From: Pseudomonas sp. FP453
GTDB lineage: Bacteria; Pseudomonadota; Gammaproteobacteria; Pseudomonadales; Pseudomonadaceae
Direction: 5' to 3'
NCBI RefSeq assembly: GCF_030687495.1
Contig: NZ_CP117435.1
Span: 1,798,001-1,862,000 of the forward strand
Length of the DNA: 64,000 nt
Numbering within the stretch: position 1 is the first letter of the stretch; the number at the start of each line of letters is the position of its first letter. This document shows, piece by piece, positions 12,187-23,363 of this stretch. The position numbers were made by a program, and so were the translations under genes. A model generated the notes under the pieces. That model had not been told where the DNA came from, ran no database searches, and saw only the letters and a list, made by a program, of their open reading frames with translations.

Positions 12187-13689
12187 ATGACTATCCCGAA
12201 GGCGTCACCGCAGCGGCCCGAAGATGAAAATCTGGGCGTCGCCGCCAACATGGCTTACGGCCTGCAGCATGTCCTCACCATGTACGGTGGCATCGTCGCC
12301 GTACCGCTGATCGTCGGCCAGGCGGCCGGGTTGTCGCCGGCGGATATCGGCCTGTTGATCGCCGCGTCGCTGTTTGCCGGTGGCCTGGCCACCTTGTTGC
12401 AAACCTTGGGTTTACCGTTCTTTGGTTGTCAGTTGCCGCTGGTGCAGGGCGTGTCGTTTGCCGGTGTGGCCACCATGGTGGCAATCGTCGGCAGCGATGG
12501 CGCCGGCGGGGTTCCGGCGATCCTCGGGGCGGTGATGGCCGCGTCGTTTATCGGGCTGTTGATTACCCCGGTGTTCTCGCGAATCACCAAATTCTTCCCG
12601 CCCTTGGTGACCGGTATCGTGATCACCACCATCGGCTTGACCCTGATGCCCGTTGCGGCGCGTTGGGCGATGGGCGGCAACAGCCGCGCGGCGGATTTTG
12701 GCAGCATGTCCAACATCGGCCTGGCCGCATTGACCCTGATGCTGGTGTTGCTGTTGAGCAAGATCGGCAGTGCGACCATTTCCCGTCTGTCGATCCTCCT
12801 GGCGATGGTGATCGGCACCGTGATTGCCGTGTTCCTGGGTATGGCGGACTTCTCCGGGGTGACCCAGGGGCCGATGTTCGGTTTTCCCACACCATTCCAT
12901 TTCGGCATGCCAACTTTCCATGTGGCCGCGATCATCTCCATGTGCATCGTGGTGATGGTGACGCTGGTGGAAACCTCGGCGGATATCCTGGCGGTGGGCG
13001 AGATCATCGACACCAAGGTCGATTCCAAACGCCTGGGTAACGGCTTGCGCGCCGATATGTTGTCGAGCATGTTTGCGCCGATTTTTGGTTCGTTCACCCA
13101 GAGCGCGTTCGCCCAGAATGTCGGCCTGGTGGCGGTCACCGGGGTGAAAAGCCGTTTTGTGGTGGCGACGGGCGGGTTGTTCCTGGTGATCCTCGGCCTG
13201 CTGCCCTTTATGGGCCGGGTGATTGCGGCGGTGCCGACGTCGGTGTTGGGCGGGGCGGGTATCGTGCTGTTTGGTACCGTGGCGGCCAGCGGTATCCGCA
13301 CGCTGTCGAAGGTGGACTACCGCAACAACATGAACCTGATCATCGTCGCCACTTCCATCGGTTTTGGCATGATCCCGATTGCGGCACCGAGCTTCTATGA
13401 TCACTTCCCGACCTGGTTCGCCACCATTTTCCACTCGGGCATCAGCTCGTCCGCGATAATGGCGATCTTGCTGAACCTGGCGTTCAACCACTTCACCGCC
13501 GGTAACTCGGACCAGCAATCGGTGTTTGTGGCAGGGACGGAGCGCAGTTTGTGCTTCCACGATGTGGCCGCGTTGCGCGATGGGGATTACTTCCGCGGCG
13601 GCAAGCTGTTTGATGCCGAGGGTAAGGAGATTCCGTTGGTGGCTGATGTATCAAGGAAGACCGCGAAACCTGAAACCACTGAAGTCTGA
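12187..13689 (+). CDS. Nucleobase:cation symporter-2 (xanthine/urate-type permease)
   Basis: 500 residues, about 14 hydrophobic helices. The NCS2 (UraA/XanQ) fold is shown by LQHVLTMYGGIVAVPLIVGQ, the VQGVSFAGVATMVAIVG helix, the ETSADILAVGEII segment with the conserved Glu, and the family signature QNVGLVAVTGVKSRFVV. The AVTGVKSR form is typical of xanthine/uric acid members, not uracil ones. It is predicted to import a purine base with protons. ATG 12187 is used; the upstream GTG/ATG at 12157 would add ten unconserved residues. Confidence 0.88.
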   Translation: MTIPKASPQRPEDENLGVAANMAYGLQHVLTMYGGIVAVPLIVGQAAGLSPADIGLLIAASLFAGGLATLLQTLGLPFFGCQLPLVQGVSFAGVATMVAIVGSDGAGGVPAILGAVMAASFIGLLITPVFSRITKFFPPLVTGIVITTIGLTLMPVAARWAMGGNSRAADFGSMSNIGLAALTLMLVLLLSKIGSATISRLSILLAMVIGTVIAVFLGMADFSGVTQGPMFGFPTPFHFGMPTFHVAAIISMCIVVMVTLVETSADILAVGEIIDTKVDSKRLGNGLRADMLSSMFAPIFGSFTQSAFAQNVGLVAVTGVKSRFVVATGGLFLVILGLLPFMGRVIAAVPTSVLGGAGIVLFGTVAASGIRTLSKVDYRNNMNLIIVATSIGFGMIPIAAPSFYDHFPTWFATIFHSGISSSAIMAILLNLAFNHFTAGNSDQQSVFVAGTERSLCFHDVAALRDGDYFRGGKLFDAEGKEIPLVADVSRKTAKPETTEV

Positions 13690-13707
13690 AGCCGGTTGAG
13701 GCACCCA

Positions 13708-14336
13708 TGTGGGAGCTGGCTTGCCTGCGATAGCGGCGGTGAATTCACCCCAGTCATCGCGGGCAAGCCCGCTCCCACATTTTGACCGGGGTCACGCACA
13801 TTTTGAATTGTGAACCCAATCCATTGTGGGAGCTGGCTTGCCTGCGATAGCGGCGGTGAATTCACCCCAGTCATCGCGGGCAAGCCCGCTCCCACATTTT
13901 GATCGGGGTCACGCACATTTTGAATTGTGAACCCAGTCCATTGTGGGAGCTGGCTTGCCTGCGATAGCGGCGGTGAATTCACCCCAGTCATCGCGGGCAA
14001 GCCCGCTCCCATATTTTGATCGGGGTCACGCACATTTTGAATCGTGAGCCCAATCCATTGTGGGAGCTGGCTCATCGCGGGCAAGCCCGCTCCCACATTT
14101 TGATCGGGGTCACGCACATTTTGAATTGTGAACCCAATCCATTGTGGGAGCTGGCTTGCCTGCGATAGCGGCGGTGAATTCACCCCAGTCATCGCGGGCA
14201 AGCCCGCTCCCACATTTTGATCGGGGTCACGCACATTTTGAATTGTGAACCCAATCCATTGTGGGAGCTGGCTTGCCTGCGATAGCGGCGGTGAATTCAC
14301 CCCAGTCATCGCAGGCAAGCGAGCTCCCACATTTTG
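13708..14336. repeat. Tandem REPIN array, six units
   Basis: Units begin with TGTGGGAGCTGG at 13708, 13825, 13942, 14059, 14143 and 14260. Spacing is 117 bases except the fourth unit, which is 84 because about 33 bases of the inner loop are gone. Each unit holds a left REP arm of the CTGGCTTGCCTGCGAT type, a loop with GGCGGTGAATTCACCCC, a right arm of the ATCGCGGGCAAGCCCGCTC type, and a linker with CACGCACATTTTGAATTGTG. It fills the gap between the convergent permease and peptidase genes. Confidence 0.93.
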
Positions 14337-14338
14337 AT

Positions 14339-15271
14339 TTAGCCAGCCTTAAGCTTTGGGTACGGTACCGAACACGCCTCATCCAGAAACTTAACCACGG
14401 TGCCCATGCACGCCTGGCGTTCTTCGACATGGGGCATGTGGCTGGAGTCTTCAAACAGCGCCCAGCGCACATCCGCGATTTCATCCAGGAACGGCTTGAC
14501 CACCAATGGCGTGGCCTCGTCATGCCGCCCGGAGATCACCAGGGTCGGCACCTTGATCGCCGACAACCGGCCAATCGACTTCCAATCCTTCAAGCTGCCG
14601 ATCACGTGGAACTCGGTCGGGCCGCTCATGGCGTGGTACACCGTGGGGTCTGAGTCGACTTGGGCAAAGGTCCGCGCGACCTCTTCCGGCCATGGATTGA
14701 CGCGGCACACGTGCTGGTCATAGAAAATCCGCGAGGCGGCGAGGTATTCCGGGTCTTGATAGGTGCCGGCGGCTTCATGCTTGAGCAGGGTTTCGTGCAC
14801 GCCTTCAGGCAATAGCTTACGCAGGCGGTTGGCTTCGCTGACCCAGGTGCGCATGCACGTCGGCGAGTTGGCCGGGATGAACGCGCGCAGGCCCTTGGGC
14901 TGGCGGATCGCGTGTTCGCTGCCGAGCATGCCGCCCCAGGATTGGCCGAGGATCGCGTAGTTATCGCGGATGTTCAGGTGGTCGAGCAGGTTGTCCAGTT
15001 CGGCGAGGAACAGGTCGACGGTCCAGAACGACGGGTCTTTGTCCGGCAGATGGGTGGAGCGGCCGTTGCCCAGTTGATCGTAGTGGATCACGGCATGGCC
15101 GCTGGCGGCGACGTCCTTGAAGGCATCGACATAGTCATGGGTGCAGCCGGGGCCGCCGTGGATGATCACCAGCGGCGTGCGGCCGGTGGTCAGGTCGCCG
15201 GTGACGCGGTACCAGGTCTGGTAGGCGCCAAAGGCCGCATACCCTTCGCGGATTTTTTCGATGAATTCCAT
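14339..15271 (-). CDS. Proline iminopeptidase-family hydrolase next to a LuxR solo
   Basis: 310 residues, alpha/beta-hydrolase fold. HGGPG at 38-42 forms the oxyanion loop, the nucleophile is S111 in GQSWGG, the acid Asp is in [10 protein letters not shown] and the base His in EDSSHMPH. The family frees N-terminal proline or hydrolyses amino acid amides. It lies directly downstream of the LuxR solo on the same strand but with its own lux-box-like site (15334-15353) 63 bases upstream of the start. In the PipR system a peptidase of this family is the induced gene. True substrate unknown. Confidence 0.85.
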
Positions 15272-15333
15272 TTCGTACCCTGCTCTTTGGAAAAAGGATC
15301 AGGGACACGATAGTCGGCACGCCAGATTTAGGT

Positions 15334-15353
15334 AACTAGCAAAACAGCTAGGT
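15334..15353. promoter_or_regulatory. lux-box-like site upstream of the minus-strand peptidase
   Basis: AACTA-N10-TAGGT, 20 bases, one mismatch from the perfect ACCTA-N10-TAGGT form found at the other peptidase. Read toward the gene it begins ACCTAGC. The spacing of 10 between 5-base arms is that of classical lux boxes. A TATCGT-like -10 element lies about 32 bases downstream of its centre, consistent with LuxR activation. Confidence 0.6.
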
Positions 15354-15365
15354 TTTACCCATCGG

Positions 15366-16151
15366 TCAATCTTCCAGCAGGCGGTAATGGGTGGCGCGCA
15401 CCACCGCTTGTACGCGGTTCTTGGCCCCCAGCTTGTGCATCGCCGAGGCCAGGTGCAGGGTGACCACCGCCAGTGAACGGCTCAACTGCGTGGCGATTTC
15501 GGCGGCGGTGAGGCCGTCGGCGGCCCATTTCAGGCATTCGCGTTCGCGTTTGGTCAGGTGGATATGCGGGTACGTGCGTAGCTCTTTGCTGAACAGTGGG
15601 TAGGCCGCTTCCTGCAAGGCGTGGGTAATCAGGCTGAAATCCGCCAGGGTCTGCTGTGCATCCTGCAACACACTGCGGGCCTTGCCGATGCGCAGGCCGG
15701 TCAACGAGGCGAAGCCGCCGCGTGGCAAGTGGATGGGCACGCTGACGCCGCAGGTCAGTTGGCGTTCGTGCAAATAAGAGGAAACAGGTGCGTGGCAAGG
15801 GTCGATGATCTTCTGCAGCGCCGTCTGGGCCTTGGCCTCGTAGGACCAGACAAATGGCGATACTGTGCTCAAGGCCAGGTGCTGCACCGGGTCGATCTGG
15901 TAGAAGCCTTCGCCGCACCACAACGCGTGCCAGTCGGGCGGCGTGTTGCGCAGCTCCAGGACCGAAGGGGTGATCAAGGCGCCGTCATGGTCGATGGGCA
16001 CCGGGGTGTAGTCATACACCAGTGCATCAAAACCCAACTGTTGGGCAAGGATAAAGGTGTTGTCCATCTGTTCATCCAGGCTCCTGCCCGGCATCAGACG
16101 GTTATTGAAGGCAGTAAGCTTGGCCAGCATCCGTTCTGCTCCCGAATTCAT
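15366..16151 (-). CDS. LuxR solo of the plant-responsive (PipR/OryR-like) type
   Basis: 261 residues from ATG 16151 (a GTG at 16184 is the alternative). An autoinducer-binding domain (about 10-160) is followed by a LuxR HTH (about 199-254: LTKRERECLKWAADGLTAAE). Aligned to LasR/TraR, the pocket keeps Trp74, Asp87-Pro88 and Trp102, but the tyrosine equivalent to TraR Tyr61 is Trp78 and the next upstream aromatic is Thr70. Loss of that tyrosine marks the subfamily that answers plant compounds and not acyl-homoserine lactones. No luxI is present. Flanked by two iminopeptidase-family genes and a peptide ABC transporter, as for PipR. Confidence 0.85.
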   Translation of the reverse strand: MNSGAERMLAKLTAFNNRLMPGRSLDEQMDNTFILAQQLGFDALVYDYTPVPIDHDGALITPSVLELRNTPPDWHALWCGEGFYQIDPVQHLALSTVSPFVWSYEAKAQTALQKIIDPCHAPVSSYLHERQLTCGVSVPIHLPRGGFASLTGLRIGKARSVLQDAQQTLADFSLITHALQEAAYPLFSKELRTYPHIHLTKRERECLKWAADGLTAAEIATQLSRSLAVVTLHLASAMHKLGAKNRVQAVVRATHYRLLED

Positions 16152-16209
16152 TTGAATCTCGACTTGCGGCAAGTAGAATGCCACGCCCCGGCGAAGGACT
16201 GCCAGGCCA

Positions 16210-16231
16210 AACCTATAAGAAATACTAGGTT
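16210..16231. promoter_or_regulatory. lux-box-like site upstream of the plus-strand peptidase/ABC operon
   Basis: AACCTA-N10-TAGGTT: a perfect 6-base inverted repeat with the 10-base core spacing of lux boxes. It lies 82 bases before the ATG at 16314, in the divergent spacer next to the LuxR solo gene, so it may serve both directions. Confidence 0.7.
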
Positions 16232-16313
16232 ATGGACGCACGGCATCCTCGGTAGTGTTGGCCTGATCAACGGCCGCTGCCAGCCAGGCCGATACCACAC
16301 AAGGAATGTATGC

Positions 16314-17201
16314 ATGTGGCGTGAAATTGCCCCCGACCAGCAGTACAACGTGCACGTCGACGGCCATAACCTCGTGGTCTACAGCTTCGGCGAAGGCGAT
16401 GAGGTGCTCTTGTGCCTCAACGGCGGCCCGGGCCTGCCGTGTGACTACTTGCGCGACGCCCATGGCTGGCTCAAGGACCATAACCTGCGAGTGGTTGCAT
16501 TCGACCAGCTTGGCACGGGCGCATCAGCCAGACCGACCGATGTTTCCCTGTGGGAAATCCGCCGTTATGTCGAAGAAGTCGAAACCGTGCGCCAAACCCT
16601 GAATCTGGGACGCGTGCATTTGCTGGGGCATTCCTGGGGCGGCTGGCTCGGCATCGAATACGCCATCCATTACCCCGCTGCGTTGAAAAGCCTGATCCTC
16701 GAAAACACCGTCGGCGACATTCCGCACCTGTCCCAGGAGCTTGAACGCCTGCGCGGCGCCCTCGGCAGTGAAACCGTGGCGATGATGCAGCGCCATGAAG
16801 CCATGGGCACCCTCGACCATCCCCAGTACCAGGCCGCCATCACCTTGCTCAACTATCGCCACGTGTGCCGCCTGGACGAATGGCCCGAGCCGGTCAAGCG
16901 CTCCCTCGGCGACTGGAACATGGGGCCTTATGAAACCATGCAGGGCCCTAACGAGTTCCTCTATGTCGGCAACCTCAAGGACTGGAACCGCATCCCCGAG
17001 ATGGCCGACTTTACGATGCCCACGCTGATCACCACCGGCCAACACGACGAACTCACCCCGGCCTGCGCCATGCGTATGAAGATGGCAGTCAAGCACGCCG
17101 AACTCCACGTCTTTCCCAACAGCAGCCATATGCCGTTCTACGAAGAGCCCCAGGCCTATTTCCCGGTGTTGCTGGACTTCCTCGCGCGTCACCGAGGCTG
17201 A
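16314..17201 (+). CDS. Proline iminopeptidase-family hydrolase (PipA-like)
   Basis: 295 residues, alpha/beta hydrolase: NGGPG at 36-40, nucleophile S107 in GHSWGG, acid Asp in TTGQHDELTP, base His in PNSSHMPF. AAGGA lies 8 bases before ATG 16314. It is a clear relative of the 14339-15271 gene but well diverged (NGGPG and GHSWGG against HGGPG and GQSWGG), so not a recent duplication. It is the first gene of an operon with five transporter genes; the permease start is 3 bases after its stop. Probably cytoplasmic, acting on the imported compound. Confidence 0.86.
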   Translation: MWREIAPDQQYNVHVDGHNLVVYSFGEGDEVLLCLNGGPGLPCDYLRDAHGWLKDHNLRVVAFDQLGTGASARPTDVSLWEIRRYVEEVETVRQTLNLGRVHLLGHSWGGWLGIEYAIHYPAALKSLILENTVGDIPHLSQELERLRGALGSETVAMMQRHEAMGTLDHPQYQAAITLLNYRHVCRLDEWPEPVKRSLGDWNMGPYETMQGPNEFLYVGNLKDWNRIPEMADFTMPTLITTGQHDELTPACAMRMKMAVKHAELHVFPNSSHMPFYEEPQAYFPVLLDFLARHRG

Positions 17202-17204
17202 CGG

Positions 17205-18152
17205 ATGAACCTGGCGCGCTACCGTTTTGTGCTGTCCCGGCCGCTGCAATTGCTGCCGGTGTTGTTTGGCATCAGCCTGATCACCTTTATCCTCGTGCGC
17301 TCGATTCCCGGCGATCCGGCGCGGGCCTTGCTGGGCTCGCGCAGCACACCGGACGCGCTGCTGAAAATCCGCGCCCAGTACGGCCTCGACCAGCCGTTGT
17401 GGCTGCAATATTTCTACTTCCTGAAGAACCTGCTCAAAGGCGATCTCGGCCAATCGCTGCTGTACAAGGTCGATGCCCTGAAGCTGATCGTCACCCGCAT
17501 CGAGCCGACCCTGGTACTGGTGCTCGGCAGCGTGCTGCTGGCGCTGTTGATCGCGGTGCCGCTGGCCACCCTGGCGGCGCGCAACAAGGGCGGCTGGGTG
17601 GATAACCTGATCCGCGTGTTCACCACGGTCGGCCTGGGCATGCCGGCGTTCTGGCTGGGGCTGATGCTGATCCTGCTGCTGAGTGTGAAGTGGGGCCTGT
17701 TTCCGGTGTCGGGCTACGGCCGCACCTTTCTCGACAAGGCGCACCACATGGTCTTGCCTTGCCTGACCATTGCCCTGGCACTGTCGGCGGTGCTGGTGCG
17801 CAACCTGCGGGCGAGCATGCTGATGGAATTGCAGGCCGACCATGTCACCGCTGCGCGGGCGCGCGGGTTGTCGGAAGCGGCAGTGTTTCGCCGGCATGTG
17901 TTGCCCAATTCCCTGGTGCCGGCGGTCAACCTGCTGGCGGTGAACATCGGCTGGCTGATCAGCGGCACGGTGGTGATCGAAAGCCTGTTCGCCATTCCCG
18001 GCATCGGCCAATTGCTGGTGCGCGGCATCTTTACCCGCGACTACATGGTGGTGCAGGGCGTGGCCATGGTGCTGGCGTGTGCGACGGTAATCGTCAACTT
18101 TGCCGCCGACGTGGTCACAGTGGCCCTCGACCCACGGGTGAAGATGCAATGA
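17205..18152 (+). CDS. Dipeptide-type ABC transporter permease (DppB-like)
   Basis: 315 residues. It has the DppB/OppB N-terminal block LLPVLFGISLITFILVRSIP followed by PGDPARALLG, six membrane helices, and the EAA-type loop near LQADHVTAARARGLSEAAVF that contacts the ATPase. It forms the inner-membrane pore with the next gene. It starts 3 bases after the peptidase stop and overlaps the next start (ATGA), so the operon is tightly coupled. Confidence 0.93.
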   Translation: MNLARYRFVLSRPLQLLPVLFGISLITFILVRSIPGDPARALLGSRSTPDALLKIRAQYGLDQPLWLQYFYFLKNLLKGDLGQSLLYKVDALKLIVTRIEPTLVLVLGSVLLALLIAVPLATLAARNKGGWVDNLIRVFTTVGLGMPAFWLGLMLILLLSVKWGLFPVSGYGRTFLDKAHHMVLPCLTIALALSAVLVRNLRASMLMELQADHVTAARARGLSEAAVFRRHVLPNSLVPAVNLLAVNIGWLISGTVVIESLFAIPGIGQLLVRGIFTRDYMVVQGVAMVLACATVIVNFAADVVTVALDPRVKMQ

Positions 18153-19006
18153 GCAGCCGCCCGTTGATCGCCCCCTGGCGCTTGCGCCTGCGCTTTGGTT
18201 TTCGCAATGGCCGACTGACCGCCGCGTGGGGCCTGTTGATCTTGTTCGTATGGTTTGCCTTGGCAGTGTTTGCGCCGTGGATCGCACCCTATGACCCGAT
18301 TGCGCAGAACACCGAGTTCAGTTTGCTGGCCCCCAGCCTCGCCCATCCTTTTGGCACCGATAACTACGGGCGCGACATTCTCTCCCGCGTGATCTGGGGC
18401 GCACGCATCGACCTGCAACTGGCCATCGTCGGCGTGATCTTTCCGTTCATGATCGGCACCTTTGTCGGTGCGGTCTCCGGCTACATCGGCGGGCGTTTCG
18501 ACAGCTTCTGCATGCGCGTGATCGACGTGATCCTCGCGTTCCCGTTCCTGGTGCTGATGCTGGCGATCATGGCCATCCTCGGGCCGGGCTTGAAGAGCTT
18601 TTATATCGCCATGGCGCTGGTGGGCTGGGTGTCGTATGCGCGGTTGATCCGCTCGCAGATCCTGGTGCTCAAGGAAAGCGACTTTGCCCTGGCCGCCAAG
18701 AGCCTGGGCTTTGGTCATGGGCGCATTCTGTTCCGGCATTTGCTGCCGAATGCGATGTTTGGCTCCATTGTGTTTTCCATGTCGGACGCGGTGCTGGTGC
18801 TGCTCAACGGCGCCGCCGTCAGTTACCTGGGCCTGGGTGTGCAGCCGCCGACCGCCGAGTGGGGCACGATGGTTGCCGAAGGGCAGGCGTTTATCACCAC
18901 GGCGTGGTGGATCTGTACATTCCCCGGCCTGGCCATCGTCACCCTGGCCATGGGTTTCAGCCTGCTGGCCGACGGTGTCGCGCAAGTGTTGGGGGACCGC
19001 GCATGA
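18149..19006 (+). CDS. Dipeptide-type ABC transporter permease (DppC-like)
   Basis: 285 residues. DppC/OppC features: one N-terminal helix, then IAPYDPIAQN and HPFGTDNYGRDILSRVIWGA, which is the OppC signature, five further helices and an EAA loop at SDFALAAKSLGFGHGRILFR. The start at ATG 18149 overlaps the upstream stop and the stop overlaps the next ATG (ATGA). Partner of the DppB-like subunit. Confidence 0.93.
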   Translation: MSSRPLIAPWRLRLRFGFRNGRLTAAWGLLILFVWFALAVFAPWIAPYDPIAQNTEFSLLAPSLAHPFGTDNYGRDILSRVIWGARIDLQLAIVGVIFPFMIGTFVGAVSGYIGGRFDSFCMRVIDVILAFPFLVLMLAIMAILGPGLKSFYIAMALVGWVSYARLIRSQILVLKESDFALAAKSLGFGHGRILFRHLLPNAMFGSIVFSMSDAVLVLLNGAAVSYLGLGVQPPTAEWGTMVAEGQAFITTAWWICTFPGLAIVTLAMGFSLLADGVAQVLGDRA

Positions 19007-19959
19007 GCCTGTTGCAGGTGCAGGACCTGAGCGTGATCGCCAACAACGCGGGGCGCGATGTAACGCTGGTGGACCGTGTGTCCTTCGCCCTGGCCGAAGG
19101 CGAAATCCTCGGGCTGGTGGGCGAGAGCGGCTCGGGCAAGACCATGGCCTGCCGCGGGCTGATGCGCTTGTTGCCGTCGCCGAACCTGCGGGTGCAGGGC
19201 GCTGCCGTGCGGCTGGCCGGCCAGGACTTGCTGGCGCTGGACGATACCGGCATGCGCGCCGTACGCGGTGGGCAGTTGGGCATGATCTTCCAGAACCCCA
19301 GCAGCCACCTCGACCCGCTGATGCGCATCGGCGAGCAGATTGCCGAGGGCATTCGTCTGCACCAGGGCGCGTCGAAAAAAGACGCGCGCCGGCAAGCCAT
19401 CGAGGTACTGCGCCAAGTCGGCATTCCCGATCCCCAGGCGCGGGTGGACAACTATCCTCACGAATTTTCCGGGGGCATGCGCCAGCGCGCGATGATCGCC
19501 GTCGCCTTGGGCTGCAACCCGAAAGTGTTGATCGCCGACGAACCGACCACCGCCCTCGATGTGACCGTGCAGGCGCAAATCCTGCGCTTGCTGCTGGACC
19601 TGCGCGACCGGCGCGGCCTGTCGATCATCATGATCACCCACGACCTTGGCGTGGTGGCGCAGACCTGTGATTCCATCGCGGTGATGTACGCCGGGCGCCT
19701 GTGTGAGCGGGGGAGCAAGTACGACTTGTTGGCGCGCCCGCAACACCCGTATACCGCTGGCCTGATCGCGTGCCAGCCGGCCCACAGCAGCGGCCACGCG
19801 TTGCTGCGCACCATCGCCGGGCAGCCGCCGTTGTTGGATGCGCTGCCCGCCGGTTGTCGCTTCAACCCGCGCTGCCCGCAGGTGGGCACCTTGTGTACTG
19901 AGCAGGTGCCGCAAGGCTTGCGCGTGGCCTGTCACTACCCGTTGGGAGCACGCCCATGA
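19003..19959 (+). CDS. Dipeptide-type ABC transporter ATPase (DppD-like)
   Basis: 318 residues. Walker A is GESGSGKT at 40-47, the Q-loop is in MIFQNPSSHLDP, the signature is FSGGMRQRAMIA, and Walker B is VLIADEPTTALD with the switch His in MITHDLG. The C-terminal oligopeptide-ATPase extension carries CRFNPRCPQVGTLC with its cysteines. It powers import with the DppF-like partner. Overlaps both neighbours by ATGA. Confidence 0.94.
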   Translation: MSLLQVQDLSVIANNAGRDVTLVDRVSFALAEGEILGLVGESGSGKTMACRGLMRLLPSPNLRVQGAAVRLAGQDLLALDDTGMRAVRGGQLGMIFQNPSSHLDPLMRIGEQIAEGIRLHQGASKKDARRQAIEVLRQVGIPDPQARVDNYPHEFSGGMRQRAMIAVALGCNPKVLIADEPTTALDVTVQAQILRLLLDLRDRRGLSIIMITHDLGVVAQTCDSIAVMYAGRLCERGSKYDLLARPQHPYTAGLIACQPAHSSGHALLRTIAGQPPLLDALPAGCRFNPRCPQVGTLCTEQVPQGLRVACHYPLGARP

Positions 19960-20927
19960 GCCTGTTGCAGATCAAGGACCTGGAGGTGAAGTTTGCCGCG
20001 TCCGGCAGCGGTTTCCTGGGGTTGAACAAGCAGTGGGTGAGGGCGGTCAACGGTGTTTCGCTGAACCTGGCGGCGGGGGAAACCCTGGGCTTGGTCGGCG
20101 AGTCCGGCAGTGGCAAGAGCACCCTGGGTCGGGCGATTCTGCACCTCAATCCGATCAGCGCCGGGCAGGTGTTGTTCGATGGCATCGACATGGCCCATGG
20201 CAGCCCTATCGACATCGCCCGCCTGCGCCACGAAACCGCGATGATCTTCCAGGACCCGTACGCAGCGCTGAACCCGCGCCACACCATTGGCGAAACCATT
20301 GCCGAAGTGCTGCGGGTGCAGCGCAAGGTCACGCCGGACCAGATCCCGCGCCGCGTCGATGAACTGCTCGACCTGGTCGGCCTGCGCCCCGAACTGGCCA
20401 GCCGCAAGCCCGGCTCCCTCAGTGGCGGCCAGTGCCAGCGCGTGGGTATCGCTCGCGCATTGGCGGTGGAGCCGCGCCTGATCATCGCCGATGAATGCGT
20501 GGCGGCGCTGGACGTGTCGATCCAGGGGCAGATCATCAACCTGTTGCTGGAACTGCAACAGCGCATGAACCTGGCGATTCTGTTTATCGCTCATGACCTG
20601 GCCATTGTGCGCCGCCTGTGCGACCGCGTGGCGGTGATGTACCTGGGCAAGATCGTCGAGGAAGGGCCGGTGGAAGCGGTCTTCACCGCGCCGCGTCATC
20701 CCTATACGGCGGCGTTGATCGAGGCGATTCCCGAGATCGATCCCCATCGGCCGTTGCCTACAGAACCTTTGCCCGGTGAGCCACCGAGCCCGCTGAACCT
20801 GCCTGCCGGTTGCGCCTTTCACCCGCGTTGCCGGCATGCGCAAACCATGTGTTCCGTGGTGTTGCCGCCTACCCATTTCCTGCACGAGCATCGGTACAGT
20901 TGCGTGCTTGAAGAACCATTGCTTTAA
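19956..20927 (+). CDS. Dipeptide-type ABC transporter ATPase (DppF-like)
   Basis: 323 residues. Walker A GESGSGKS at 48-55, Q-loop MIFQDPYAALNP (typical of DppF), signature LSGGQCQRVGIARAL, Walker B LIIADECVAALDVS. The usual Pro after the catalytic Glu is replaced by Cys (ADEC in place of ADEP), which does not touch catalytic residues. The C-terminal CAFHPRCRHAQTMC motif is present. It overlaps the preceding gene by ATGA; the binding-protein gene follows 32 bases later. Confidence 0.94.
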   Translation: MSLLQIKDLEVKFAASGSGFLGLNKQWVRAVNGVSLNLAAGETLGLVGESGSGKSTLGRAILHLNPISAGQVLFDGIDMAHGSPIDIARLRHETAMIFQDPYAALNPRHTIGETIAEVLRVQRKVTPDQIPRRVDELLDLVGLRPELASRKPGSLSGGQCQRVGIARALAVEPRLIIADECVAALDVSIQGQIINLLLELQQRMNLAILFIAHDLAIVRRLCDRVAVMYLGKIVEEGPVEAVFTAPRHPYTAALIEAIPEIDPHRPLPTEPLPGEPPSPLNLPAGCAFHPRCRHAQTMCSVVLPPTHFLHEHRYSCVLEEPLL

Positions 20928-20959
20928 CCCTCTGCCATTCATTAACAAGGAGTTGTGAT

Positions 20960-22474
20960 ATGCAATCGCGTCATTTGAAGTTGCTCGCCGCCGCTACATT
21001 GACCGCCTGGTCCCTGACCGCCGGGTTGGCGCAAGCCGCCGGTGTACTGACCATCGGCTGCCGTGAGGACAGCACCACGTTCGACCCGATCAAAAGCGCG
21101 CAAAACCGTGACACCTGGGTATTCGCCAACGTGTACGACACCCTGGTCCGCGTGGACAACCTGGGCACCAAGATGGAGCCGGGGCTGGCAGAAAGCTGGG
21201 ACATTTCCAAGGACGGCCTGACCTACACCTTCAAGCTGCGTGATGCGAAGTTCTCCGATGGCTCGGCGATCAGCGCCGACGACGCGGCGTTCAGCCTGTT
21301 GCGCATCCGTGACAACAAGGCCTCGCTGTGGAGCGATCCGTTCAGCCTGATCGACACCGCCAAGGCGGCTGATCCGAAGACCCTGGTGGTCACCCTCAAG
21401 ACTCCGGCCGTAGCCTTCCTCTCGCAACTGGCGTCGCCGACGGTGTCGATCCTGTCGGAAAAAGCCATGACCAAGATGGGCGAAGACGCCTACTCGGAAA
21501 ACCCGGTAACCTCCGGCGCGTTCACCGTGGACGAGTGGCGCAAGGGCGACCGCGTGATCCTGAAGAAGAACCCGAACTTCTGGCAGGCCAAGAACGTCAG
21601 CCTGGACGGCGTGGAATGGGTCTCGGTGACCGACGACAACACGCGCATGCGCATGGTGCAGAACAACGAGCTGGACACGGCGATCTTCGTACCGTTTTCC
21701 CGCGTTGAAGAGCTGAAGAAAGACAAGAACGTGGTGATCCACTCTGACCCGTCCACCCGCGAAGATCACCTGCTGATCAACCACGCCCACGGCCTGCTGG
21801 CCAAGAAGGAAGTGCGCGAGGCGCTGGACATGGCCATCGATAAACAATCGCTGGTGAAGACCGCCACTTACGGTCAAGGCACTGTGGCGTATTCCTACAT
21901 CCCTAAGGGTTCGCTGTTCCACTACGCCAACAACCTGCAACGCCCGTATGACCCGACGGCCGCCAAGAAGCTGCTGGCCGATGCCGGCGCCAAGGACTTG
22001 AAACTCAACTACGTGGTCAACGCCGGCAACGAAGCCGACGAGCAGATCGCGGTGATCATCAAGGACCAGTTGGCCAAGGTCGGTGTGACCGCCAACCTGC
22101 AAAAGGTCGACCCGACCCAAAGCTGGCAGATGCTGGTGGACGGTGAGTACGATATTTCGGTGATGTACTGGACCAACGACATCCTCGACCCGGACCAGAA
22201 GACCACCTTCGTGCTGGGCCACGACACCAACCAGAACTACATGACCCGTTACAAGAACGACAAGGTCAAGGACCTGGTGGCAGCCGCGCGGATCGAGGCC
22301 GACCCGGTCAAGCGTGAGCAGATGTATGTGGAGTTGCAGAAGCTGGCCAAGCAGGACGTGAACTGGATTGACTTGTACTACAGCCCGTACATCAATATTT
22401 CACGCAGCAACATCAGTAACTTCCTGCAAAACCCATTGGGTCGTTTCACCCTAGAAGAAGTCGTAAAAAACTAA
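20960..22474 (+). CDS. Periplasmic peptide-binding protein of the ABC transporter (DppA-like)
   Basis: 504 residues. A Sec signal peptide (MQSRHLKLLAAATLTAWSL) is cut near AQA-AG at about residue 23. The mature part is an SBP_bac_5 (cluster C) fold: TFDPIKSAQNRDTWVFANVY, PGLAESWDISKDGLTYTFKL, and SGAFTVDEWRKGDRVILKKN. AAGGAG lies 7 bases before the ATG. It is the last gene of the peptidase-transporter operon. Such proteins bind short peptides or related cations; the ligand here is probably also linked to the LuxR solo signal, which is inference. Confidence 0.92.
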   Translation: MQSRHLKLLAAATLTAWSLTAGLAQAAGVLTIGCREDSTTFDPIKSAQNRDTWVFANVYDTLVRVDNLGTKMEPGLAESWDISKDGLTYTFKLRDAKFSDGSAISADDAAFSLLRIRDNKASLWSDPFSLIDTAKAADPKTLVVTLKTPAVAFLSQLASPTVSILSEKAMTKMGEDAYSENPVTSGAFTVDEWRKGDRVILKKNPNFWQAKNVSLDGVEWVSVTDDNTRMRMVQNNELDTAIFVPFSRVEELKKDKNVVIHSDPSTREDHLLINHAHGLLAKKEVREALDMAIDKQSLVKTATYGQGTVAYSYIPKGSLFHYANNLQRPYDPTAAKKLLADAGAKDLKLNYVVNAGNEADEQIAVIIKDQLAKVGVTANLQKVDPTQSWQMLVDGEYDISVMYWTNDILDPDQKTTFVLGHDTNQNYMTRYKNDKVKDLVAAARIEADPVKREQMYVELQKLAKQDVNWIDLYYSPYINISRSNISNFLQNPLGRFTLEEVVKN

Positions 22475-22492
22475 AGAACACCGCAATACCCA

Positions 22493-22582
22493 TGTGGGAG
22501 CGGGCTTGCCCGCGATGGCGATCTGTCAGTGATGAATACCTCGCCTGACACTCCGCCATCGCGGGCAAGCCCGCTCCCACAT
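22493..22582. repeat. REPIN (inverted REP pair)
   Basis: TGTGGGAGCGGGCTTGCCCG and its reverse complement flanking a loop of about 50 bases, between the convergent binding-protein gene and yciK. Confidence 0.9.
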
Positions 22583-22622
22583 TTTTGGTGTTCACATTTT
22601 GCTTTTATGGTGTGGTCAGGGA

Positions 22623-23363
22623 TTATTGCGCGTCGAACGCCTGGCCATTGATGCCAGCACTGTCCGGCCCCATCAGATACAGGTACACCGGCATGATCTC
22701 TTCCGGCGCCGGCCGCTCCATCGGGTTCTCCCCCGGATAGGCCTGGGCCCGCATGCTGGTGCGTGTGCCACCTGGGTTGATGCTGTTGGAGCGTACCGCT
22801 GCCACATCCTCAAGCTCATCGGCCAAGGTCTGCATCAGCCCCTCAGTGGCAAACTTCGAAACACCGTAAGCCCCCCAGTACGCCCGCCCCTTGCGCCCGA
22901 CGCTGCTGGAGGTAAACACCACCGACGCATCCTGGGACAGCTTGAGCAGCGGCAGCAAGGTGCTGGTCAGCATGAACATCGCGTTGACGTTCACGTGCAT
23001 CACGCGCATGAAGTTCTCACCGGACAACTGCTCGATCGGCGTACGTGGGCCGATGATCGAGGCGTTGTGCAGCAGGCCGTCGAGGTGGCCGAACTCCTTT
23101 TCGATCATCGCTGCCAGCTCATCGTACTGATGGGGCAGGGCGGTCTCCAGGTTGAAGGGGATCACCACCGGCTGAGGTTGGCCGGCCGCTTCGATTTCGT
23201 CATAGACCTGGGCCAGGTTGGCTTCGGTCTTGCCCAGCAACAGCACGGTGGCGCCGTGGGCGGCGTAGGTTTTCGCCGCCGCCGCGCCAATCCCGCGACC
23301 GGCGCCGGTGACCAGGATCACCCGGCCTTTGAGCAGTTCTGGACGTGCAGAGTAATCAAACAT
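22623..23363 (-). CDS. yciK: YciK-type short-chain dehydrogenase
   Basis: 246 residues, SDR fold: cofactor loop TGAGRGIGAAAAK, LLHNASIIG, and the catalytic Ser/Tyr/Lys set in VFTSSSVGRKG and YWGAYGVSKFA. ATG 23363 has GAGG 7 bases upstream. YciK-family enzymes are uncharacterised SDRs found next to mupP and ubiG in Pseudomonas, as here. The order ubiG-mupP-yciK on one strand matches other pseudomonads. Confidence 0.88.
   Translation of the reverse strand: MFDYSARPELLKGRVILVTGAGRGIGAAAAKTYAAHGATVLLLGKTEANLAQVYDEIEAAGQPQPVVIPFNLETALPHQYDELAAMIEKEFGHLDGLLHNASIIGPRTPIEQLSGENFMRVMHVNVNAMFMLTSTLLPLLKLSQDASVVFTSSSVGRKGRAYWGAYGVSKFATEGLMQTLADELEDVAAVRSNSINPGGTRTSMRAQAYPGENPMERPAPEEIMPVYLYLMGPDSAGINGQAFDAQ

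Follow-up and report, generated by a model that had tools for sequence, protein, structure and literature searches.

Positions 14339-22474 of a 64,000-nucleotide stretch from the 6.28-Mb, single-contig genome of Pseudomonas sp. FP453 (the whole stretch is called the window below) carry the gene for a LuxR-type regulator, pipR, flanked by genes for two hydrolases and a peptide importer. In all probability this locus is an orthologue of the Pip system, an OryR/PipR-type system for sensing plant compounds that is known from Pseudomonas sp. GM79 and comprises pipR, pipA, and aapA-F (Schaefer 2016), and it would work by the mechanism proposed below. Patterns derived from PipR retrieved 102 related loci, of which we analysed the 80 best, all of them from Pseudomonas and with PipR identity down to 62%. 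The eight genes occur in the same order and on the same strands in 77 of these 80 loci, GM79 (L081) included; of the other three, L036 and L058 are on short contigs (3.7 and 7.6 kb), and in L069 only a match to aapF is lacking. At each of two places beside pipR, all 80 loci carry a lux-type box with at most one mismatch.

The pip locus and its paired lux-type boxes

The genes and sites of the locus in FP453 are as follows.

14339-15271, minus strand: pipA, proline-iminopeptidase-family alpha/beta hydrolase of 310 amino acids (aa), with GQSWGG, GRHDE, and SSHMP motifs
15307-15312, minus strand: -10-like element of pipA, TATCGT, its centre 34 bp from the centre of the lux-type box
15334-15353, minus strand: pipA lux-type box, AACTAGCAAAACAGCTAGGT (ACCTAGCTGTTTTGCTAGTT on the minus strand), AACTA-N10-TAGGT, centre at -72.5 from the pipA ATG
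15366-16130, minus strand: pipR, most likely true coding sequence, LuxR solo of 254 aa, ATG start with GGGAG 8 bases upstream
15366-16184, minus strand: longest pipR frame, GTG start
16210-16231, plus strand: aapA lux-type box, AACCTATAAGAAATACTAGGTT, perfect inverted repeat AACCTA-N10-TAGGTT with 6-bp arms, centre at -93.5 from the aapA ATG
16314-17201, plus strand: aapA, second iminopeptidase-family hydrolase, 295 aa, TIGR01250 at 279 bits, with the family motifs
17205-18152, plus strand: aapB, permease (PF00528, PF19300)
18149-19006, plus strand: aapC, permease (PF00528, PF12911)
19003-19959, plus strand: aapD, ATPase (PF00005, PF08352)
19956-20927, plus strand: aapE, ATPase (PF00005, PF08352)
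20960-22474, plus strand: aapF, periplasmic substrate-binding protein of 504 aa (PF00496)

Profile searches confirmed the arrangement that a sequence-only reading of the window had described, a LuxR solo without luxI between two iminopeptidase-family hydrolases and a dipeptide importer; both dyads were found exactly as that reading had written them, and its claim that PipR of poplar-associated Pseudomonas has the same neighbours fits the gene order of GM79 given above. PipA scored 255 bits against TIGR01250 (cut-off, 168) and matched PF00561; both hydrolases flanking pipR exceed this cut-off and keep the GxSWGG, GxHDE, and SSHMP motifs. The pipR product matched PF03472 (autoinducer-binding domain, 88 bits) and PF00196 (LuxR-type helix-turn-helix, 56 bits), and is identical to PipR of Pseudomonas sp. 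CBZ-4 and 99% identical to that of KBW05 and PDM05. The products of aapB-aapF make up a five-gene family 5 peptide ATP-binding cassette (ABC) importer, divergent from pipR, while pipA lies downstream of pipR. Neither the FP453 genome nor that of GM79 gave a match to PF00765, the luxI profile; 14 control genomes also gave none, and two added Pseudomonas genomes gave five (four over the cut-off) and two. A second regulator with an Autoind_bind domain lies at G000:C1:5399860-5400279 (L096) of the FP453 genome, bringing the total of such regulators to two, and it is probably another LuxR solo, since the genome has no luxI match.

The pipA box differs at one base from ACCTA-N10-TAGGT. The window holds two matches to this motif with at most one mismatch, against 0.28 expected, a count reached in 3 of 100 shuffles; with two mismatches, the 10 matches against 7.48 expected are not unusual (24 of 100 shuffles reach 10). 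The FP453 genome has 38 places with at most one mismatch, one of them perfect, and this rate predicts about 0.0006 matches for the 94-bp gap on one side of pipR and about 0.0011 for the 183-bp gap on the other. The number of boxes is thus modestly unusual in the window, and it is their position that matters. In an alignment of the pipA gap that kept 77 of 81 sequences (L036, L080, L082, and L083 were left out), the ten core bases of the pipA box are invariant in all 75 distinct rows, compared with an average of 75% over the whole gap. The 20-bp core of the aapA box matches without a mismatch in 50 of the 80 loci and with one mismatch in 30.

The pipA box also stands at a fixed distance from a -10-like element. 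Towards pipA, all 80 loci (77 of 77 distinct sequences) have TAnnnT at a distance of 34 bp from the centre of the dyad, and the next best distance reaches 36%. The luxI box overlaps the -35 region, at about -42.5, and the 34-bp spacing at pipA is close to that arrangement; it is the layout of class II activation by LuxR.

To examine whether the box pair follows pipR, we used 59 sampled genomes of Pseudomonas, that of FP453 among them, of which 13 carry pipR and 46 do not. A degenerate motif found the pair flanking pipR in 12 of the 13 and a single box in the thirteenth (G051), whose second box, read directly, is one base off the motif; the pair is therefore present in 13 of 13, with 1 of the 26 boxes identified by direct reading. 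In the 46 genomes that lack pipR, no pair is visible to the degenerate pattern, which misses some box variants, as G051 illustrates. The sequence-only reading had proposed searching related genomes to see whether the motif occurs at these two places only: boxes do occur at both places, and in the sampled genomes the pattern saw the pair only with pipR, but the motif itself is not exclusive to the pip locus and turns up elsewhere as single, unpaired matches.

Two other explanations of the dyads bear on these results. Lux boxes of different LuxR proteins resemble each other, and the genome has the second autoinducer-binding regulator described above, so the dyads might be bound by that protein, or by both, and the locus might answer the N-acyl homoserine lactones (AHLs) of neighbours. 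We regard this as highly improbable: the box pair tracks pipR, and published passages on GM79 state that pipA expression needs PipR and does not respond to six AHLs (PMC4981722). That the dyads are chance matches, and the peptidases and transporter a peptide-nutrition operon outside LuxR control, draws on the frequency of the motif on its own in the genome and is almost certainly wrong, given the boxes in every locus, the invariant pipA core, the fixed distance to the -10-like element, and the finding in GM79 that pipA is no longer induced once its box is mutated (PMC4981722). The proposal that PipR binds both sites is thereby well supported, at the level of sequence comparison for FP453.

Several single matches were considered as further PipR sites and set aside. 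A site at 2394728-2394747 (AGCTAGCCGAACGGATAGGT; L011 1501-1520, ACCTATCCGTTCGGCTAGCT) is intergenic and is the sole other place in the FP453 genome that fits the degenerate box; a similar site in G034 lies in unrelated sequence, a stretch without a blastn match. AACTA-N10-TAGGT at 889690 sits among several GTACAAG/CTTGTAC repeats between two genes (L006 1479-1555, genome positions about 889668-889744), which overlap the near match and look like the operator of another regulator. A site on contig 2 of G060 was rejected, that genome having no pipR. G018, with two palindromic matches of the ACCTA-N10-TAGGT type, and G025, with three, both lack pipR; these matches are probably boxes of other LuxR proteins. 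The sequence ACCTATCG(T/C)GGAAGCTAGTT recurs in G012, G018, G028, G048, and G060, four of which lack pipR, and is likely part of a conserved gene. Directly downstream of pipA, 13708-14338 is occupied by a tandem array (periods of 117, 84, and longer) of inverted repeats, GCGGGCAAGCCCGCTCCCACA, resembling repetitive extragenic palindromes; Rfam gave no match within 13500-22700.

The start of pipR and the promoters facing aapA

Three further elements lie between pipR and aapA.

16131-16184, minus strand: 18 codons ahead of ATG 16130 in the longest (GTG) frame of pipR, most likely not coding
16152-16179, plus strand: P1, predicted sigma-70 promoter facing aapA, TTGAAT-16-TAGAAT, with the -10 element TAGAAT at 16174-16179
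16253-16258, plus strand: -10-like element TAGTGT of P2, a predicted PipR-dependent promoter of aapA, 35 bp from the aapA box (centre to centre)

When codon differences are summed over pairs, codons 2-18 of the longest frame have 7994 that are nonsynonymous and 1274 that are synonymous, a ratio of 6.27, compared with 0.70 for codons 20-58, after ATG 16130 (68 of 81 sequences used, 67 of them distinct and gap-free). The three codon positions vary almost equally in codons 2-18, and the usual excess at third positions sets in from ATG 16130 on. Ahead of this ATG, 9 of the 81 sequences are out of frame and 3 have an in-frame stop. On the ratio, the frameshifts, and the stops, GTG 16184 was rejected and the start of pipR is most likely 16130. 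ATG 16151 was set aside as well, the codon being missing in part of the loci. G010 and G013 have an open frame of exactly 254 aa; in the other 11 of the 13 pipR genomes it stays open further upstream (286, 287, or 346 aa), an observation that is neutral as to the longer form. Two features speak against the later start: the residues VAFYL..F..EI are alike even in distant loci, and most loci retain the GTG.

The same evidence bears on GM79, for which passages in a set of papers on LuxR solos of plant-associated bacteria (PAB) give PipR as 289 aa (PMC8546723, PMC7683790, PMC10134790, PMC7301841, PMC3909224; the PAB set). The L081 frame reproduces this length, with K96, T100, W104, and H105 at their printed numbers, and the first 37 residues of the published protein are most likely not translated. 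With the later start, a box described as lying within coding DNA would become part of a plain divergent promoter region, and reporter or complementation constructs for pipR and aapA would have to be read differently.

P1 was found by a promoter scan of 1.2 kb, in which chance alone would give 0.4 such promoters; the same scan gave no sigma-70-like promoter for pipA. Its -10 element falls in an 11-bp block, TGGCATTCTAC on the minus strand and GTAGAATGCCA on the plus strand, that is invariant in all 81 sequences and holds the same place relative to the pipR frame in 72 of them. The best -35-like hexamer 16 to 18 bp ahead of TAGAAT has four of six matches in 65 sequences and three of six in 16. 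We conclude that P1 is most likely a constitutive sigma-70 promoter of aapA-F, located in the stretch covered by the longest pipR frame.

The invariant block also admits a reading on the opposite strand. The -24/-12 consensus of sigma-54 promoters is TGGCAY-N5-TTGC, and 16169-16183, TGGCATTCTACTTGC on the minus strand, fits it exactly in the window, with GG-N10-GC kept in 75 of 81 sequences; pipR might thus have a sigma-54 promoter that ties the system to nitrogen status. We consider this unlikely. Six of the 81 sequences (L064 and L091-L095) carry GG in place of GC, the spacer bases are invariant too, although sigma-54 has no need of them, and exact matches in the genome are near background (30, against 23 for a control pattern). 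A plus-strand -10 element with a kept -35-like block accounts better for the invariant bases, and the sigma-54 promoter was ranked below it. A literature search for PipR together with rpoN found no paper on this system, as judged by titles and the beginnings of abstracts.

On the aapA side, TAnnnT lies 35 bp from the box centre in 68 of the 80 loci, the spacing assigned to P2. Bound PipR would then meet two stacked promoters, acting as a roadblock to the constitutive P1, whose predicted start lies about 25 to 45 bp upstream of the lux box, and driving P2. P1 would then fall within the DNA annotated in GM79 as the beginning of pipR, and the published GM79 PipR would be 37 residues too long. We put this arrangement forward tentatively, at somewhat below even chances. 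If it is true, the importer would always be sampling, a swap of promoters would change output little when ligand is present, and pipA alone would be strictly switched. By its position, the shared box could possibly serve autoregulation of pipR also.

Several observations weigh against parts of this picture. The evidence for P1 consists of its conservation and its fit to the consensus, and its -35 element is weak (three or four of six); averaged over 44 distinct sequences, TTGACA-like scores are slightly higher at 8 to 11 bp, a spacing not used by promoters, than at 16 to 18 bp (3.93 versus 3.70). The TAnnnT element of P2 is missing at 35 bp in 12 of the 80 loci (L069 and L085-L095). The aapA box ranks just 29th of 144 windows in conservation, because the adjacent DNA, up to the invariant block, is even more conserved.

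Proposed mechanism and ligand

In the mechanism we propose, AapBCDE and the binding protein AapF would import a small peptide-like or ethanolamine-derived plant compound, and PipR, once it has bound the imported compound, would attach to the conserved lux-type dyads. At pipA, PipR would be a class II activator working through the box 34 bp from the -10 element, and pipA would be on solely when ligand is inside the cell; PipA and AapA would cleave the ligand or a derivative of it, and the response would end. Transcription of aapA-F would come from the constitutive sigma-70 promoter P1 and, to a lesser extent, from the PipR-dependent P2. The promoter layout suggests default expression of the importer and production of the PipA hydrolase on demand. 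A simple reason for expressing the importer without a signal may be that import must precede sensing, so that the importer is needed first.

The ligand reported for GM79 is the ethanolamine derivative HEHEAA, according to passages of a review in the PAB set. The FP453 system likely answers the same or a related compound, by analogy with GM79. We keep its identity at this strength because the same review reports that a close homologue elsewhere fails to bind HEHEAA, and because one of the four printed pocket residues differs: K96 of GM79 PipR is E in FP453, and the two proteins are just 71% identical. W104 and W108 of GM79 PipR are kept. By alignment to GM79, with TraR numbering taken from published passages of the PAB set, the positions of TraR Y61 and W57 correspond to W89 and W85 of the FP453 protein; the W at Y61, together with W57 and D70, is kept in all 80 loci.

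AapF is identical at 458 of 480 aligned columns (95%) to the AapF chain of PDB entries 7kz8 and 7kz9. The AapF of GM79 itself matches that chain at just 389 of 480, and the solved protein is therefore from another strain. The structural work on AapF concerns import of HEHEAA, as passages of the review in the PAB set describe it. A literature search for AapF together with PipR found no paper.

Comparison with GM79 and other LuxR solos

FP453 and GM79 share the eight genes, their order, and their strands, with proteins that are 71 to 90% identical (PipA, 75% over residues 8-301; AapA, 90%; AapF, 80%). The box centres at -72.5 and -93.5 in FP453, and in L016, which carries identical sites, compare with -71.5 and -91.5 printed for GM79, and the GM79 aapA box is described as overlapping pipR (PMC4981722), whereas that of FP453 stays clear of pipR whichever in-frame ATG, GTG, or TTG is taken as the start. 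Passages of the same paper report that GM79 needs aapB to respond to leaf macerate, peptone, or Ser-His-Ser, that peptidase mutants over-respond, and that pPaapA has a basal level about five times as high as pPpipA and is affected little by PipR, which makes aapA weakly PipR-dependent. A sigma-70-like promoter that faces aapA, with none for pipA, would offer a reason for this high and weakly PipR-dependent basal expression. The inference of the sequence-only reading is largely right, and most of it is already in print for GM79; its proposal that the two peptidases and the importer form one regulon holds for pipA, which PipR drives in GM79, but the regulon is uneven, as the weak dependence of aapA indicates.

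What is new, within a limited literature search for P1 and the short pipR, is the conservation of both boxes, the promoter geometry, the later start of pipR, and the predicted default-on promoter of the importer. The genome comparison extends both PipR boxes, and the spacing from the pipA box to its -10-like element, across Pseudomonas.

Among other PAB solos, two reports weigh against the proposed mechanism: in passages of the PAB set, leaf extract gave no pip induction by PsaR2 of P. syringae pv. actinidiae, which also showed no autoregulation, and PsrR of Kosakonia likewise gave no pip induction. The same set describes a pip promoter beside psoR without a lux box, and the Xanthomonas loci are described as having no linked ABC importer (PMC4981722). 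At the positions of TraR W57 and Y61, where PipR has W and W, OryR and PsrR carry M and W. NesR, OryR, XccR, PsoR, PsaR2, and PsrR, according to these passages, resemble PipR in being LuxR solos that adjoin a pip gene and carry substitutions in the autoinducer pocket. A response to a plant compound, and not to AHLs, has been reported for the GM79 member of this group (passages of PMC4981722 and the PAB set). The FP453 PipR is a PAB (OryR/PipR) LuxR solo by its domains, the absence of luxI, the W at Y61, the adjoining pip gene, and the lux-like repeat.

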